Source: Clostridia bacterium (lineage in GTDB: Bacteria; Bacillota; Clostridia; Christensenellales; Aristaeellaceae). From it: a stretch of 64,000 nt of DNA. A model generated the notes under the pieces. The model did not search any database and had not been told where the DNA came from. It saw nothing but the letters and a program-made list of their open reading frames with translations. Below are positions 6,500 through 63,725 of the stretch, piece after piece; the stretch's first letter is position 1, and every line of letters begins with the position of its first letter. The translations under genes were made by a program, and so were the position numbers. The stretch covers positions 1-64,000 of the forward strand of contig JAFRBK010000032.1 in the NCBI GenBank assembly GCA_017404985.1. The letters run 5' to 3'.

Positions 6500-6653
6500 A
6501 TGCATATCCTCCCACAGCAAAACAAAACGCAACGCAACGATGATACTATTATATCCGGTTCCCGGGAATTATTGAATACCAAATTCGTACCGTTTGTCAA
6601 ATCTTTGCAGGATAAATGTGCAGGATGAATGCGAAATGGAAAAATCAGGGCAC

Positions 6654-6682
6654 TTGACATCAAGGCAAGAGGTTGATATAAT
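6654..6682 (+). promoter_or_regulatory. Consensus sigma-A promoter of lexA
   Basis: A perfect TTGACA (6654-6659), 17-bp spacer and perfect TATAAT (6677-6682). Just downstream, 6692-6702 (AGCAAATTGCT) is an 11-bp palindrome apart from its centre and a candidate operator. Confidence 0.85.
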
Positions 6683-6733
6683 GCTTATTGAAGCAAATTG
6701 CTCCATATCAGTTTGAAAGGAACTGTGGATCTC

Positions 6734-7357
6734 ATGAGACCGAAACTCAACGAGAGAAAAAAGATCATCGCGGATTTTATCCAGCAGTATTTTGAAGAAA
6801 ACGATCAGAATCCCAGCGAGCGGGATATTTCGGAAGGCACCGGAATTCCCCCTTCGTCCGTTCACCGGTTTCTGGCGGAGATGCGCGATCAGGGGGAGAT
6901 CCTGTTTGACGGGCGGAGAAGCGTCCGGACACAGAAGCTGGACCATATCAGCGGCGTGAACCTGATTCCCGTGCTGGGGGCCGTTGCCTGCGGCCCCGGC
7001 CAGGAGGAAGAAGAGGAGTTCATCGAATACCTTCGCATGCCGGAAAGCCTGGTCGGAAAGGGCGAGATGTTTGCACTAATCGCCAAGGGTGAGTCCATGG
7101 TTGACGCCGGCATCCACCCGGGAGACTATGTGATTGTCCGAAAGAACCATGCTGCCAGGCCTAACGATATCATCGTCGCGCTGATGGACGGGAAAAACAA
7201 CCTGAAGAAACTGGTGCAGGAAGGGAAAAAGGTGATTCTGCGCTCCTGCAACCAAAAAAACCAACACCTGTATCCCGATATCCTTCCGGAAGAGGGATCG
7301 GAGCTGCAGATCCAGGGCGTCGCCATCGGCGTATACCACGGGCTTGTGTCCGGCTGA
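6734..7357 (+). CDS. lexA: LexA-type autoproteolytic repressor
   Basis: 207 residues. The N-terminal winged helix (residues about 3-60; PSERDISEGTGIPPSSVHRF) precedes an S24 peptidase domain. The self-cleavage bond lies in AVACGPG (C86-G87). The catalytic dyad is Ser121 in KGESM and Lys158 in NNLKKL. It should repress SOS-type genes and be inactivated through RecA filaments. The N-terminal domain is rather divergent from typical Clostridia LexA, so a role limited to the neighbouring ATPase locus is also possible. Start ATG 6734 lies 13 bases after GAAAGG; an in-frame GTG at 6725 sits too close to that site. Confidence 0.85.
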   Translation: MRPKLNERKKIIADFIQQYFEENDQNPSERDISEGTGIPPSSVHRFLAEMRDQGEILFDGRRSVRTQKLDHISGVNLIPVLGAVACGPGQEEEEEFIEYLRMPESLVGKGEMFALIAKGESMVDAGIHPGDYVIVRKNHAARPNDIIVALMDGKNNLKKLVQEGKKVILRSCNQKNQHLYPDILPEEGSELQIQGVAIGVYHGLVSG

Positions 7358-7432
7358 CCCGGCAGCAGCAGGACACAAAGATAAACCTGGAAGCAGAAAA
7401 CGACCTGAACAGCGAAAGGAGATAAAAAATCA

Positions 7433-8428
7433 TTGTATCGCCCATTCAAAGCATCCGAACTGGCCGCCAAAAAAATCAATTACTTCTGGCCCGGCGTGAT
7501 CGCCTACGGGTTCCCGGCATATATCAACGGTTCCACCGGACTGGGGAAAACGAACATCCTGCTGAAAGTAGCGGCTGACGCCACCAGGGGCATTTTCCCT
7601 CCCGGAATCGGCAAGCACGGCCTGACCGCACCGAAACACGATTCCCCTATCAGGATTTTCTATGTTTCCACGGAGAATCCGGTTCGAGAAATCGTCTACC
7701 CAGCCCTGCTGCACAATAACGCAGATACCAGCATGATCAAAATCCAGAAGGAAGAAGACGGCCATTTTGTGCTTTGCAGGGAGGACCTGGAAGCTGTCAT
7801 GAAAGATTTTGAACCCCGGCTCATCATTATTGACGCCTTTCAGGAGCATCTGCCAGAGGGGTGCTCCCTGTCGGACGGGGAGCACATGAGCAAGCTGATG
7901 CGCGAGCTGGAGCAGTTTGCCTATGAGACAAATGTCGCGCTGATTATGATCGGCAACGACTCGAAAGGAACAGAAGGAAGGGCGGATGCCAACAAGCTGC
8001 TGGGGAGCGGCGTGATCGCCCGCAGGGCCAGATCGCTGATCACTGTCAAGAGCGACGGCGATGAACGGTATATCAAGGTGACGAAGTGCCTCGGGTTTAC
8101 GAAAAAGGAAGATACGCTGATCGGATACAGATTCAACAATGACGGCTATCTGGAGTTCTATCCATATGGCGAAGAAGGAACTGAGGACGAAGTCAGCGAG
8201 AAAAAAGTCACTGTCGTTCAATTTATCCAGGATTCTTTGTCAGAAGGACCGCTCAGCGGTGATGACTTATTTCACATTGCAGAGGAGAAAGGGTATTCAA
8301 AGCATCAGATATACAAGAATTTGGAAAAATCAAAGGCGAAGGTGAAAAGAATCGGTGCCCATCAATCTTATTGGTACCTGCCAGAGGTTACACCCGATAT
8401 AGAAGCATATCTTAGAAGTGTAAGCTGA
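7433..8428 (+). CDS. RepA-like AAA (RecA-fold) ATPase with C-terminal winged helix
   Basis: 331 residues. Walker A is GSTGLGKT (33-40), Walker B is LIIIDAF (D134), and a sensor-like IMIGNDSKG follows. This is the AAA_25/RepA hexameric-ATPase pattern of plasmid and phage replication proteins. The last 75 residues (PLSGDDLFHIAEEKGYSKHQ...) look like a winged helix. Translation starts at TTG 7433 with AAAGGAGA upstream. It follows lexA by 75 bp in the same direction and is followed by tandem 8-bp repeats, an arrangement like a replication initiator beside its iterons. No primase, integrase or mobilisation gene is present, so a replicon remnant or a repair or regulatory module are both possible. 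Confidence 0.75.
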   Translation: MYRPFKASELAAKKINYFWPGVIAYGFPAYINGSTGLGKTNILLKVAADATRGIFPPGIGKHGLTAPKHDSPIRIFYVSTENPVREIVYPALLHNNADTSMIKIQKEEDGHFVLCREDLEAVMKDFEPRLIIIDAFQEHLPEGCSLSDGEHMSKLMRELEQFAYETNVALIMIGNDSKGTEGRADANKLLGSGVIARRARSLITVKSDGDERYIKVTKCLGFTKKEDTLIGYRFNNDGYLEFYPYGEEGTEDEVSEKKVTVVQFIQDSLSEGPLSGDDLFHIAEEKGYSKHQIYKNLEKSKAKVKRIGAHQSYWYLPEVTPDIEAYLRSVS

Positions 8429-8437
8429 ACCATTTGT

Positions 8438-8560
8438 CTATTCGCTAAAGGCCATGTCATCGGCGAATTGGCGAATAGGCGAATAGAGGTCTGCAGACCT
8501 TGATAAATAACGCTTGCCTATTCGCCAGTCATCGGACAAATTGGCGAATAGGCGAATAGG
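8438..8560. repeat. Two hairpins built from tandem 8-bp GGCGAATA repeats
   Basis: The 8-bp unit occurs three times at 8462-8485 (GGCGAATT then two GGCGAATA) and twice at 8543-8558. Each cluster pairs with an upstream reverse copy: CTATTCGC (8438-8445), and GCCTATTCGCCA (8516-8527) with TGGCGAATAGGC (8542-8553), a perfect 12-bp stem with a 14-nt loop. Both copies share the flanking word GTCATCGG. Lying directly after the RepA-like gene, they could be iterons, an operator or a terminator pair. Confidence 0.85.
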
Positions 8561-8664
8561 ATTGGCATATTTTTCCATAAAGCAGTTCTCTGAATTATCT
8601 TTTCGTGATAAAGCTCATAAAAGCATGTAACCCAAGTATCCCATATCCAACGCCCGGCTCAGTT

Positions 8665-9030
8665 TGTGACTCGATTTTTTTGTGACTCGTTCGTTCCGGA
8701 ACGTGATGAAACTCAAAAAAAGTGAAACTCAAACGGTGATATGATCCGTGATGCCCGGCGATTCGAGTACAGCCCGTGTACACTCAAAAAACAGTACACT
8801 CAAAACTTGATACGGCAACAAAAGAATGGAAATAATGGTCAAAAAGATGACCAGCGCCGTTTCTGGTGGCGGTGTTACTAAAAAAAGTGTTACTAAAGCA
8901 TCATCCCCAGTCAACACACCTTCGGTTTGCATCTCGTATTATATGTTTCTCGAACCTGGTTTTGTGTATCAGTTTTTTTGTGTATCAGTTCTGGTTTTTC
9001 AGCGATGAAACTCAAAAAAATTGAAACTCA
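8665..9030. repeat. Six paired short direct repeats around A/T tracts, period 15-16 bp
   Basis: Six different 8-10 bp words are each duplicated once with an A or T run between copies: TGTGACTCG at 8665 and 8681; TGAAACTCA at 8707 and 8723; GTACACTCA at 8778 and 8794; GTGTTACTA at 8872 and 8887; GTGTATCAG at 8964 and 8980; TGAAACTCA at 9006 and 9022. The period is 16 bp in five pairs and 15 in one. Pairs 1 and 5 carry T runs, so they are in reverse orientation relative to the others. Pairs 1 and 2 flank a perfect 12-bp palindrome CGTTCCGGAACG (8692-8703). No convincing gene lies in 8429-9206. Confidence 0.9.
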
Positions 9031-9206
9031 AAATGCCGGCGAAGCACTGGGCGGAAACAGCTGACGGCGGTAACTGCCAGCCTGCCGGGAGCTTGACAAA
9101 GCAGAACAGAACAGGCTATGCTTGGATGAACCGTCGGGCCGGCTGAACCGGGTTTTCCGGAAAAGGTCGGCAGGCTAAATCCATGCACAAAGGAAAATGA
9201 AGATAT

Positions 9207-54941: not shown

Positions 54942-55814
54942 TTACTCCGTTTTTTTTTGCTCCTCCAGCGTCAGCTCTTTGAAGCCCAATTTCGTAATGA
55001 ACTCGTTCGCCTTGTCGAGCATCTTCTGGAAGTCTTCCTTCGTCATGGTCGCGAAGTCATATGCGTTTTCCTTCAGGGCTTCCACCTGGGCCGCCAGTTC
55101 TTCCTTGGCCTTGGTGGCGTCCGTCAGCTTGCTCTGGGCCTCGTCCAGCATGGCTTTGGTGGCGTCCTTTTCCTTGTTCGCCGCTTCCAGCTGCTTCGCT
55201 GCCTCTTCTTCCGCGGCTTTCTTCGCATCGGCCGCAGCCTGCTTCACATCCGCTTCGGCCTTTTCGGCAGCCTGCTTGGCTTCTTCCTGCAGCGTATTCA
55301 CCTGGGCCGCCAGCTGATCCTTTTCGCCGGTCACTTCAGCCAGCTTGGCCGCTGCTTCCTCGGCCGCCTTCGCCGCGCTGTCCGTCAGGGTTTTCACCTG
55401 GGCTTCCAGGTCTTCCTTCGCCTTGGTTGCTTCATCCAGCTTGGCTGCCGCTTCCTCGGCCGCCTTTGCCGCGCTGTCCGTCAGGGTTTTTACCTGGGCT
55501 TCCAGGTCTTCCTTCGCCTTGGTCGCTTCGTCCAGCTTGGCTGCCGCTTCCTCAGCTGCTTTCGCCGCGCTGTCCGTCAGGGTTTTCACCTGGGCTTCCA
55601 GGTCTTCCTTCGCCTTGTTCGCTTCGTCCAGCTTGGCCGTTGCTTCTTCAGCCGCCTGTTTCGCTTCCGCGGTCAGTGAATCCACCTTGGCGGTCAGCTC
55701 TTCCTTTTCCTTGGACAGCGCGTCTTTCGCGCCGTTCCCCGTCAGGAAAAGAACCGCAAATACCACTGCCAGAATTCCCAGAATAGCCATCACGATTTTC
55801 GAAGTGTTCTTCAT
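54942..55814 (-). CDS. Membrane-anchored coiled-coil protein with 96-bp tandem repeats
   Basis: 290 residues. One N-terminal helix (IVMAILGILAVVFAVLFLTG) anchors it. Residues 36-240 are a continuous Ala/Lys/Glu coiled coil. Three nearly identical 32-residue units (62-93, 94-125, 126-157) each read LDEA(N/T)KAKEDLEAQVKTL then TDSAAKAAEEAAAK; they correspond to 96-bp DNA repeats at 55344-55631. The C-terminus (DFATMTKEDFQKMLDKANEF) is a non-repeat helical piece. The N-terminal layout matches the SH3 coiled-coil gene at 61.5 kb. It is probably an outward-facing spacer or scaffold. Confidence 0.8.
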   Translation of the reverse strand: MKNTSKIVMAILGILAVVFAVLFLTGNGAKDALSKEKEELTAKVDSLTAEAKQAAEEATAKLDEANKAKEDLEAQVKTLTDSAAKAAEEAAAKLDEATKAKEDLEAQVKTLTDSAAKAAEEAAAKLDEATKAKEDLEAQVKTLTDSAAKAAEEAAAKLAEVTGEKDQLAAQVNTLQEEAKQAAEKAEADVKQAAADAKKAAEEEAAKQLEAANKEKDATKAMLDEAQSKLTDATKAKEELAAQVEALKENAYDFATMTKEDFQKMLDKANEFITKLGFKELTLEEQKKTE

Positions 55815-61550: not shown

Positions 61551-63725
61551 TTATTCCACCTTCTCCCCGGTGCTTCCCGGCTGGGTCACTTTCACTTCGT
61601 TCAGCTGCGCATAATTGCTGTGCACCCAGCCCTCGACGCCGTTCTGCAGCCGGATTTTGAACCAGCTGTTGGGCGAGGATTCCAGCACCAGGTATTCGGT
61701 GTCGGACATGGCGTTGCCCAGCGCCTTCGACCGGATGTCCGGTTCCTTGCGCACGTTTGGATAGGTGCCTTTTTTAATCACGACGGTCCGCGTGATCACC
61801 AGGGTACCCGACTCGTCTCCGGAAGTTTCGACAAATGTGTTGGCCGGCAGCGCCGCCAGCGTATCCTCGAAGAGCTGCTTCATTTCGGACACAGCTTCTT
61901 CCTTCTTTTGGTTTTCCTCCGTCAGTACGGCAATCTCTTTGTCCATTCTTTCCGTGTCGCTGGTTTTGATTTTCAGCTCGCCGCTCAGCGTCTCGATCTG
62001 CTGGGCCTTCTCCGTCGCTTCGGTCTTCAGCGTCTCGATCTGCTGGGACTTCTTCGTTGTCTCGGTCTTCAGTGTCTCAATCTGCTGGGCCTTTTCTGTT
62101 GTCTCGGTCTTCAGGGTTTCGATCTGCTGGCTCTTCTCCGTAGTCTCGGTCTGCAGCGTTTCAATCTGCTGGTCTTTGGCCGCGGCCTCGGTCTGCAGCG
62201 TCTCGATCTGCTGCGCTTTGGCTGTCGCATCGCTCTGCAGTGTCTCAATCTGTTCGGTTTTCGCTGCGCTTTCGGTCTGCAGCGTTTCAATCTGCTGGGC
62301 TTTGGCTGTCGCATCGCTCTGCAGTGTTTCAATCTGCTCGGTTTTCGCCGCGCTTTCGGTCTTCAGCGTCTCGATCTGCTGGTTTTTGGCGGTTGCTTCG
62401 CTCTGCAGCGTCTCAATCTGCTGGGTTTTCGCTGTTGTTTCGGTCTGCAGCGTCTCGATCTTCTGGTCCTTTTCCGCCGCTTCCGTCTGCAGGGTCTGAA
62501 TCCGGGCGGTTTGCTCCCCGTTGGCTGTGGTCAGGGTCTCGATCTTCTGGTCCCTGTCTGCCACGTCTGCGTTCAGGGTTTCGATTTCCGCAGCCTTGGC
62601 CGCCACTTCCCCGGTCAGGGTCTGAATCTGGGCGGTTTTATCGGCGATGTCCGCGTTCAGGGTAGCGATCAGCGTCGTTTTCTCCGTGATATCGGCCTGC
62701 AGGGTTTCAATCTGGGCCGCTTTGTCGGCGATGTCCGCTTCGAGCTTTTCCGTCTGGCTCATGGTTTCCGTCGCCTTGCCCGCGTCTGTGGCCAGTGTTT
62801 CCGCCGCTTTGCCGGCGTCCGCGGCCAGTGTCTCCCCAGCCTTGCCGGCGTCTGTGGCCAGTGTTTCCGCCGCTTTGCCGGCGTCCGCGGCCAGTGTCTC
62901 CCCAGCCTTGCCGGCGTCTGCGGCCAGTGTTTCCGTTGCCTTGCCGGAATCCGCGGCAAGTGTCTCCGCAGCCTTGCCCGCATCCGCGGCCAGTGTCTCC
63001 TCAGCCTTGCCGGCGTCCGCCGTGCCTGCTTCGATTGCTTCCAGCAGGGCTGTTTTCTCTGCGATATCCTGTTTCAGCGACTCGATCTGGGCAGCTTTTC
63101 CGGCCACGTCGGCCTCCAGGGCTTTGATCTGCCCCTCTTTTTCAGCCACGTCGGTCTCCAGCGTCTCGATCTGGGCCGACCGTTCCTGCTCCAGCTGCGC
63201 ATTTTTGGACGCCTTGTCCGCCGCTTCCGTTTCCAGTGTTTCGATTCTCGCCGCTTTGGTCTTCACGTCCTCTTCCAGCGTCTCGATTTTCGTGTTTTTG
63301 TCAGCAGCTTCCGCCTCCAGGGCCTCGATCCGGGCTGCCTTTTCCGCAGCGTCCGCCTCCAGCGTCTCGACCTGGATGCTCTTTTCTGCCGCGTACAGTT
63401 CCAGCGTCTCGATCTGGGTGCTCTTCTTCGCCGCATCTGCTTCCAGCGTCTCGATCTGGGTGCTCTTCTTTGCCGCGTCTGCCTCCAGCGTCTCGATCTG
63501 CGTGGTCCTCTCTGCCGCGTCGGCGTTTAAGGTATCGATCGCCGCATCCCGGCCGGCCAGGTCGGTATTCAGCTGCTCAATCCGCGCAGCGCTTTCGGTG
63601 GCTTCGGCGGTCAGCGTGTCAATCTGCTGTGATTTGTCATTGTTGTTGGTGATGTACAGTATCACAAACACCATGGCAAGCACTGTCAGAAGAGAAATCA
63701 GGGTCACGGCAACGCTCTTCTTCAT
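61551..63725 (-). CDS. Membrane-anchored giant coiled-coil protein with C-terminal SH3 domain
   Basis: 724 residues from ATG 63725 (GAGGAGG 8 bases upstream). After a helix (AVTLISLLTVLAMVFVILYI), a coiled coil of 14-residue units (about 35 copies of IETL..(D/E)...K.(Q)) is broken in the middle by eight 11-residue units ((A/S)GKAxETLAxD; near 62.76-63.02 kb). The coil ends at about residue 620. The C-terminal 80 residues are an SH3_3-like domain (KKGTYPNVRKEPDIRSKALG ... WFKIRLQNGVEGWVHSNYAQ). Such domains bind cell-wall peptides. It probably links membrane and wall, with a length-adjustable rod. Confidence 0.85.
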   Translation of the reverse strand: MKKSVAVTLISLLTVLAMVFVILYITNNNDKSQQIDTLTAEATESAARIEQLNTDLAGRDAAIDTLNADAAERTTQIETLEADAAKKSTQIETLEADAAKKSTQIETLELYAAEKSIQVETLEADAAEKAARIEALEAEAADKNTKIETLEEDVKTKAARIETLETEAADKASKNAQLEQERSAQIETLETDVAEKEGQIKALEADVAGKAAQIESLKQDIAEKTALLEAIEAGTADAGKAEETLAADAGKAAETLAADSGKATETLAADAGKAGETLAADAGKAAETLATDAGKAGETLAADAGKAAETLATDAGKATETMSQTEKLEADIADKAAQIETLQADITEKTTLIATLNADIADKTAQIQTLTGEVAAKAAEIETLNADVADRDQKIETLTTANGEQTARIQTLQTEAAEKDQKIETLQTETTAKTQQIETLQSEATAKNQQIETLKTESAAKTEQIETLQSDATAKAQQIETLQTESAAKTEQIETLQSDATAKAQQIETLQTEAAAKDQQIETLQTETTEKSQQIETLKTETTEKAQQIETLKTETTKKSQQIETLKTEATEKAQQIETLSGELKIKTSDTERMDKEIAVLTEENQKKEEAVSEMKQLFEDTLAALPANTFVETSGDESGTLVITRTVVIKKGTYPNVRKEPDIRSKALGNAMSDTEYLVLESSPNSWFKIRLQNGVEGWVHSNYAQLNEVKVTQPGSTGEKVE

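Follow-up and report, generated by a model that had tools for sequence, protein, structure and literature searches.

Direct word pairs at a 16-bp period behind a RepA-like gene in a repeated element of a Clostridia bacterium: possible iteron-like sites of mobile DNA

The window, meaning the whole stretch of 64,000 nucleotides analysed here, carries a repeated and probably mobile element (6649 to 9083, + strand), the limits of which are drawn from sequence shared with other contigs of the same genome (G000). On the left, similarity to G000:C2:2063-2092 starts at 6649; on the right, the copies on C2 (L027) and C1 (L025) share sequence to 9083 and 9082, respectively, and then diverge. The right end of the element (9034 to 9083, +), common to the window, C2, and C1, closes in a GGCTG...CAGCC inverted repeat, and contigs C2, C51, and C23 hold pieces of 6649-9083 with different internal deletions. 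The first gene (6698 to 7357, +; 219 aa) encodes a LexA/S24-type repressor (Pfam Peptidase_S24, 2.7e-22; NCBIfam lexA, 112.8 bits against a cut-off of 110.95), in which a Cys-Gly cleavage site and a Ser/Lys dyad are recognised by eye only. The second (7433 to 8428, +; 331 aa) encodes a RepA-like AAA_25 helicase/ATPase (Pfam AAA_25, 2.1e-10) with a C-terminal part that, by eye, resembles a winged helix. A profile built from five RepA-like members of the genus matched RadA in the PDB (4.7e-11) and, weakly, RepA 1g8y (0.0079). No integrase, relaxase, or transposase was found by Pfam among the 15 window genes scanned (first 17.5 kb), and a similarity search against plasmid DNA gave no match. Elsewhere in the window, at 55299-55714 and 61985-63521, there are long tandem repeats of 96/48, 42, and 33 bp, which probably code for repetitive proteins.

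Directly 3′ of the RepA-like gene, the position in which PICI origins are found, lies an origin-like segment, here called module A (8459 to 8562, +). It consists, in order, of octamer direct repeats GGCGAATT/GGCGAATA, a hairpin AGGTC/GACCT, an AT-rich box TTGATAAATAA, an inverted octamer CTATTCGCC, and octamers again, the box being flanked by octamers on both sides. The excerpted text of PMC6092414 describes PICI origins as two sets of repeats flanking an AT-rich region 3′ of the replication gene; module A fits this layout and by analogy may act as an origin. The segment is predicted to fold strongly (z = -5.55 on the + strand and -4.54 on the - strand). Across 23 copies from the same genome, the octamer stem is 95.7% paired and shows double changes in two of its nine pairs (at one, five copies have U-A and one has C-G in place of A-U; at the other, two have A-U in place of U-A), and the inner hairpin is 87% paired, with C-G replaced by U-A in four copies and some other cells unpaired. 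The number of double-change cells (12 vs 4.0 in shuffled alignments, with 0/500 reaching 12) and the covariation score (0.139 vs 0.072; 0/500) exceed the shuffled values; the counts of double-change pairs (3 vs 1.9; 73/500) and of pair types (7 vs 5.5; 47/500) lie within their range. Octamer changes appear in direct and inverted copies together (GGCGAATA, GGCGAATT, GGCGAAAC). At the gathering threshold, Rfam recognised only a tRNA in the window and no family for module A or for the array beyond it, and a scan of viral sequences with the module A pattern gave 0 matches.

Further downstream, at 8663-9033, six pairs of words follow, in each of which one word stands twice across a run of A or T, at a period of 16 bp in five pairs and 15 bp in one. 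This is the arrangement that the first-pass annotation had described; its count of six different words comes down to five, since pairs 2 and 6 share the word TGAAACTC. Pair 1 (8663 to 8689, -; word CGAGTCAC, on the + strand GTGACTCG; period 16; T-run) and pair 2 (8707 to 8733, +; TGAAACTC; period 16) enclose a 12-bp palindrome CGTTCCGGAACG (8692 to 8703), also reported earlier and read directly from the sequence, which is found again with the same pair order and is imperfect in some copies. Pair 3 (8778 to 8805, +) repeats GTACACTC at period 16; pair 4 (8872 to 8897, +) repeats GTGTTACT at period 15, although at 16 in most other copies; pair 5 (8960 to 8990, -; T-run) repeats CTGATACAC, on the + strand GTGTATCAG, at period 16; and pair 6 (9006 to 9033, +) repeats the word of pair 2, again at period 16. 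The T-runs of pairs 1 and 5 agree with the earlier description of these two as inverted, with the qualification that their + strand words also start with GTG.

When the region 8430-9200 was scanned for a repeated word of at least 7 bases with a run of six A or T, 6 pairs were found, whereas 1000 first-order Markov shuffles keeping dinucleotide frequencies averaged 0.019 and never exceeded 1. The same scan gave 8 matches in the whole 64-kb window, the two outside the array having period 14, and 2 matches (periods 18 and 19) in 400 kb sampled elsewhere in the genome; the prospect, raised with the initial description, that such pairs might be as frequent elsewhere was thus not borne out, neither of these matches lying at 15-16 bp. 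Among congeners, there were 3 matches in 340 kb of G011 and 3 in 420 kb of G022. Word pairs are scarce in the ordinary DNA of this genome, yet recurrent within a dispersed repeat family.

This family was traced through the genome in several ways. A blast search with 8430-9060 returned 72 matches. Searched for without mismatch, the pattern of pair 2 turned up 32 times in the genome but was absent from all of 60 relatives (36 from the same genus), and a degenerate pattern with at most two mismatches occurs 63 times, compared with 0 for the reversed-pattern control. The matches fall at about 25 places, spread over 22 contigs; C1 and C23 share an identical end of 141 bp and may represent a single place split in two. 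Most of the places are intergenic in a coarse ORF view. Recurrence on 22 contigs, and in genomes of other species, makes an assembly artefact unlikely. All five words recur, and a sixth, TGCAACTC, is present at C13, C33, and C47. In many copies the pairs come after module A, which was not seen at the arrays on C3, C45, and C44. Within the list for the word family W2, both words are perfect in 35 of 40 rows despite widely differing flanks; the other rows are one imperfect pair (L021:3567), two register shifts (L009:875, L010:155), and two chance matches in the window (6726, 52301), the list being without L028 and further W2 copies standing in that for W4. In the arrays listed for this genome, pairs 1 and 5 are opposite in polarity to pairs 2-4. 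One frame of many pairs reads [V/M]xLKKSxTQ; a peptide constraint was rejected as the cause: A-tract variants such as AAAAATAA and AAAAATTC alter residues, and selection on a peptide gives no reason for one DNA word to stand twice, in two different frames. Upstream of the downstream AP_endonuc_2 gene, where 8 relatives were compared, other sequence is present and no empty site could be defined.

The search of relatives for the pair pattern, as proposed in the first-pass annotation, revealed the same geometry with other words. The pattern ACTCAAAA-N6-9-ACTCAAA is present in 7 of 45 genus genomes, in the relatives with words other than those of the window: 43 times in the window's own genome, 14 in G068, 2 each in G004 and G011, and once each in G033, G015, and G016. 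The reversed-pattern control gave 5 matches over all 45 genomes, to be compared with 21 outside the own genome. A looser pattern gave 6 matches in four other genomes vs 6 for its control and is therefore uninformative outside the own genome; three of its G011 matches led to real arrays. In a set of 63 pairs (one G004 pair counted twice, in two overlapping loci), the period is 16 in 60, 15 in two, and 17 in one, the pattern allowing 14-17, and no third copy of the word at 15-17 bp was found in any. The halves also change together. The five free prefix bases before ACTC agree between halves at 105 of 125 positions in 25 distinct pairs (shuffled 54.3 ± 5.9; 0/20000), at 53 of 60 vs 37.1 without the own genome (1/20000), and, weakly, at 26 of 30 vs 22.5 in the 6 distinct pairs left without G000 and G068 (338/20000), figures made generous by the relatedness of the entries. 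An earlier covariation test was discarded, as an exact run had been the ground for choosing 12 of its 23 pairs, and the listing of arrays by exact-word pattern was unused for judging conservation. The first-pass annotation was right that the geometry is kept as the sequence changes, and several species of the genus show this.

Other short repeats were met in the same genomes. In G022 (L097-L117), there are many intergenic heptamer tandem repeats with periods 7, 14, and 21 (e.g., AATTATG, TTCACTC, TTAAGTT) and no 16-bp pairs in the scan; a first period scan had returned mostly the codon periodicity of coding DNA. At L117:17172-17367 of this genome, a constant word like ATTTCACA stands between small hairpins of differing sequence at period 24. 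G011 has tandem octamers GTGCACTC, TACCACTC, and TGTCACTC at L084:1701-1733, L088:6740-6782, and L082:1369-1400, the ending of which resembles that of the pairs. Several pair arrays of G068 (L259-L264) stand behind a promoter-like leader (TTGACTTATGATATGATACACTTGGCAAAATTGGATG or a variant of it), and a leader related to it, by eye, precedes module A at C31 of the own genome.

Relatives of the RepA-like protein were sought in the genome contigs, where a single-protein search returned 0 and an alignment search 28. Four other genus members are 25-67% identical to the window's RepA-like gene. Downstream of the gene, period-8 repeats are present in 5/5 genus loci and period-16 runs in 3/5; G006 has module A and no pairs, and G011:C3 has no exact period-16 run. 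Outside the genus, 7 of 18 loci were unreadable (match on the other strand or frame unclear), and short direct and inverted words were seen by eye after the gene in 6 of the 11 readable loci, as well as in both of two phage-collection records. Downstream of 14 outside-genus RepA-like genes, there are 3 runs of period 15-17, none of them of the pair form. Among the seven pair-bearing genus genomes, a RepA-like match at E<=1e-3 was obtained in three (G000, G011, and G033) and in none of the other four (G004, G015, G016, and G068), so this RepA cannot be the only reader of the pairs.

Whereas in some species the pairs have a RepA-like neighbour, in others they accompany a terminase-linked gene, here called Y, of 190 aa and without a Pfam, PHROG, or NCBIfam match. 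Y is found in 14 of 45 genus genomes, often in several copies (17 matches in G011). In the window's own genome, four W2 copies at C3 and at C45 and two W4 copies at C44 lie between a terminase-small-subunit-like gene and Y. A pair with the word GTTTCACTC occupies a like place at G004:C19, where the terminases were matched by profile (small subunit, phrog_10899, 3.1e-7; large subunit, phrog_38, 5.1e-67); those beside pairs in G000, G012, G068, G033, and at G004:C52 were identified by eye only. For a count, 15 of 30 Y loci were used, namely those outside the own genome with both flanks available and a substantial match; the remaining loci lay at contig ends (L236, L242, L255), were partial or distant matches (L237-L239, L246, L250-L253), or belonged to the own genome (four copies, viewed by eye). 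At 12 of these 15 loci, a stretch of 8 bases or longer is repeated exactly at period 16 within 130-170 bp of the Y match, compared with 2.9% of random placements (26/900); at those 12, no other period between 10 and 25 did as well as 16. Of the three loci without one (L233, L248, L249), L233 and L248 look, by eye, like degenerate pairs. Seven words are linked to Y: GTTCCCCTC, GTTCCTCTC, GTTCCACTC, GTTTCACTC, GTTACACTA, TGTGCCTA, and TTCTCAC(C/T)C. These pairs immediately precede the gene or immediately follow its stop, seven on the 5′ side and five on the 3′ side, and the A-run is on the strand of Y in 12/12 pairs outside the own genome. The Y copies of the own genome are accompanied by W2 at C3/C45, W4 at C44, GTACACTC at C40, and W1 at C12:106.8k; the W1 pairs beside the copy at C12:106.9k are opposite in polarity to the strand bias elsewhere. 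A tRNA gene stands just after Y in L243, L244, and L235.

The reading of these data that we favour, quite possible in our judgement yet somewhat short of probable, is that the pairs are iteron-like recognition sites, each with two half-sites, of the replication or maintenance machinery of mobile elements; that a protein binds them, that it acts in replication, and the way in which the element moves are inferred. Each pair would be one site, with two equal words set 16 bp apart (some 1.5 turns of the helix) on either side of a short run of A or T, and small mobile elements of the genus would be the carriers of such sites. Those of the window would form the cis-acting tail of a replicon-like element, after a RepA-type helicase gene and an origin-like octamer module, and it is because the pairs follow this gene and this module that they are read as iteron-like. 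The five words may represent five specificities gathered by mosaic recombination. A nearly fixed spacing, two copies, the common CT(C/A)AAA end, and a jointly changing prefix are what would be expected of a site with two equal half-sites. Among the three readings offered in the first-pass annotation, an array of protein sites spaced by 1.5 turns is the best supported on the sequence evidence, with 60 of 63 pairs at 16 bp and halves that change together. Like iterons, the pairs are direct repeats at a fixed spacing; however, classical iterons repeat one word and the array has five, which counts against the iteron-like reading. Module A alone would show the single repeated word.

A wider form of the proposal, which we consider doubtful, is that the pairs represent a recognition code of mobile DNA, in which the frame (16 bp, A tract, CT(C/A)AAA end) is fixed and a prefix of 4-5 bp varies from species to species and from site to site, both halves being rewritten together. 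An element with several prefixes would then answer several readers, be it initiators or phage terminases, and the array would be a panel of addresses. No description of such pairs was found, by title or abstract, in the open-licence literature. Should the pairs be recognition sites, this genus would supply numerous natural examples of changed specificity at constant geometry, and the evolution of DNA recognition would become directly testable; also, a single kind of cis site would be common to two sorts of mobile DNA, a minimal RepA-type replicon and terminase-linked genes.

The iteron-like reading comes naturally where the pairs adjoin RepA-like genes; where they adjoin terminase genes, they could serve packaging. 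It has to be considered that they are packaging-start sites, cos- or pac-like, read by terminase small subunits, and that several words allow packaging by several phages, as satellites do. Such a role is unlikely, if still to be taken seriously. The terminase genes adjoining pairs are consistent with it, as are the LexA-like gene and the PICI-like origin arrangement of the window element. So is the comparison with lambda cosB, which in the excerpted text of PMC6092414 has three TerS sites (R3, R2, and R1). However, very similar TerS-like proteins are found, by eye, beside different words in the own genome (C45/C3 vs C44), and 5 of the 12 Y-linked pairs lie 3′ of Y. Pfam recognised neither terminase, and viral contigs scanned with the pair pattern CACTCAAAA yielded 8 stretches, four of them one repeated sequence, which by eye are chance matches.

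Alternatively, the pairs may act in RNA, e.g., by marking where transcripts of mobile elements are bound or processed, in the leader or at the 3′ end. The consistent strand of the A-run beside Y, the position of the pairs at the very ends of that gene, and the strong, partly covarying fold of the adjacent module A speak for this idea, to which we give little credence. A structured RNA had been among the readings first offered, and it applies to the octamer module at 8459-8562, with its strong fold and some compensating changes, much better than to the pair array, with a fold of z = -2.59 on the + strand (2/100 shuffles fold as well) and -0.65 on the - strand. Moreover, no Rfam family matches, and the opposite polarity of pairs 1 and 5 relative to pairs 2-4, met again beside Y at C12:106.9k, speaks against it.

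It is about equally improbable that the pairs are a selfish dispersed repeat without function, that is, tandem duplications that spread with the elements and whose halves are kept alike by slippage or gene conversion. The species-specific vocabulary of words, the mosaic segments that often stop at pair ends, and the somewhat varying words of a family, among copies as well as between halves, would agree with such an origin. Slippage, however, should vary both copy number and spacing, and 0 of 63 pairs have a third copy and the spacing hardly changes; comparable sites differ in word from species to species, but not in geometry or strand. Scars of repeated insertion, each a short target duplication around an A tract, are very improbable: word, A tract, and word do resemble a target duplication, but the words share the CT(C/A)AAA ending in unrelated contexts and recur exactly in dozens of places, and comparable sites of other species hold a pair of another word, not an empty, uninterrupted single copy.

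The preferred reading, iteron-like sites in a replicon-like element, can be set against several known systems. Origin repeats of PICIs and SaPIs differ between elements. As far as the excerpted description of these origins goes, module A resembles them in lying directly 3′ of a replication gene, with two repeat sets around an AT-rich region. The window element has a LexA-like and a RepA-like gene, which may correspond to the repressor and rep genes of a PICI. Unlike PICIs, it is without a recognised integrase (by Pfam, 15 window genes), separate primase, or attachment site, it adds 16-bp pairs of five words, and it is dispersed in about 25 places. The RepA-bearing integrative or mobilizable elements of gut Clostridia, which we take to be Tn916-like, also have an AAA_25 gene followed, by eye, by direct and inverted words around an AT-rich box. 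Their neighbours are MobV-like relaxases or tyrosine integrases (below NCBIfam cut-offs), whereas no relaxase or integrase was seen beside the genus RepA-like genes listed, and the 14 outside loci examined were without pair arrays. STRRs are intergenic short direct repeats in many-copy arrays; the pairs, too, are intergenic short direct repeats in bacteria, but unlike the STRR heptamers they have exactly two copies in the 63 pairs studied here. REPINs, in the excerpted text of PMC3116915, are inverted repeats that form hairpins and are linked to RAYT transposases, whereas the copies within a window pair are direct and so do not form a hairpin of inverted copies. Like REPINs and REP sequences, however, the pairs are short intergenic two-copy repeats that are dispersed, species-specific, and linked to a gene family.
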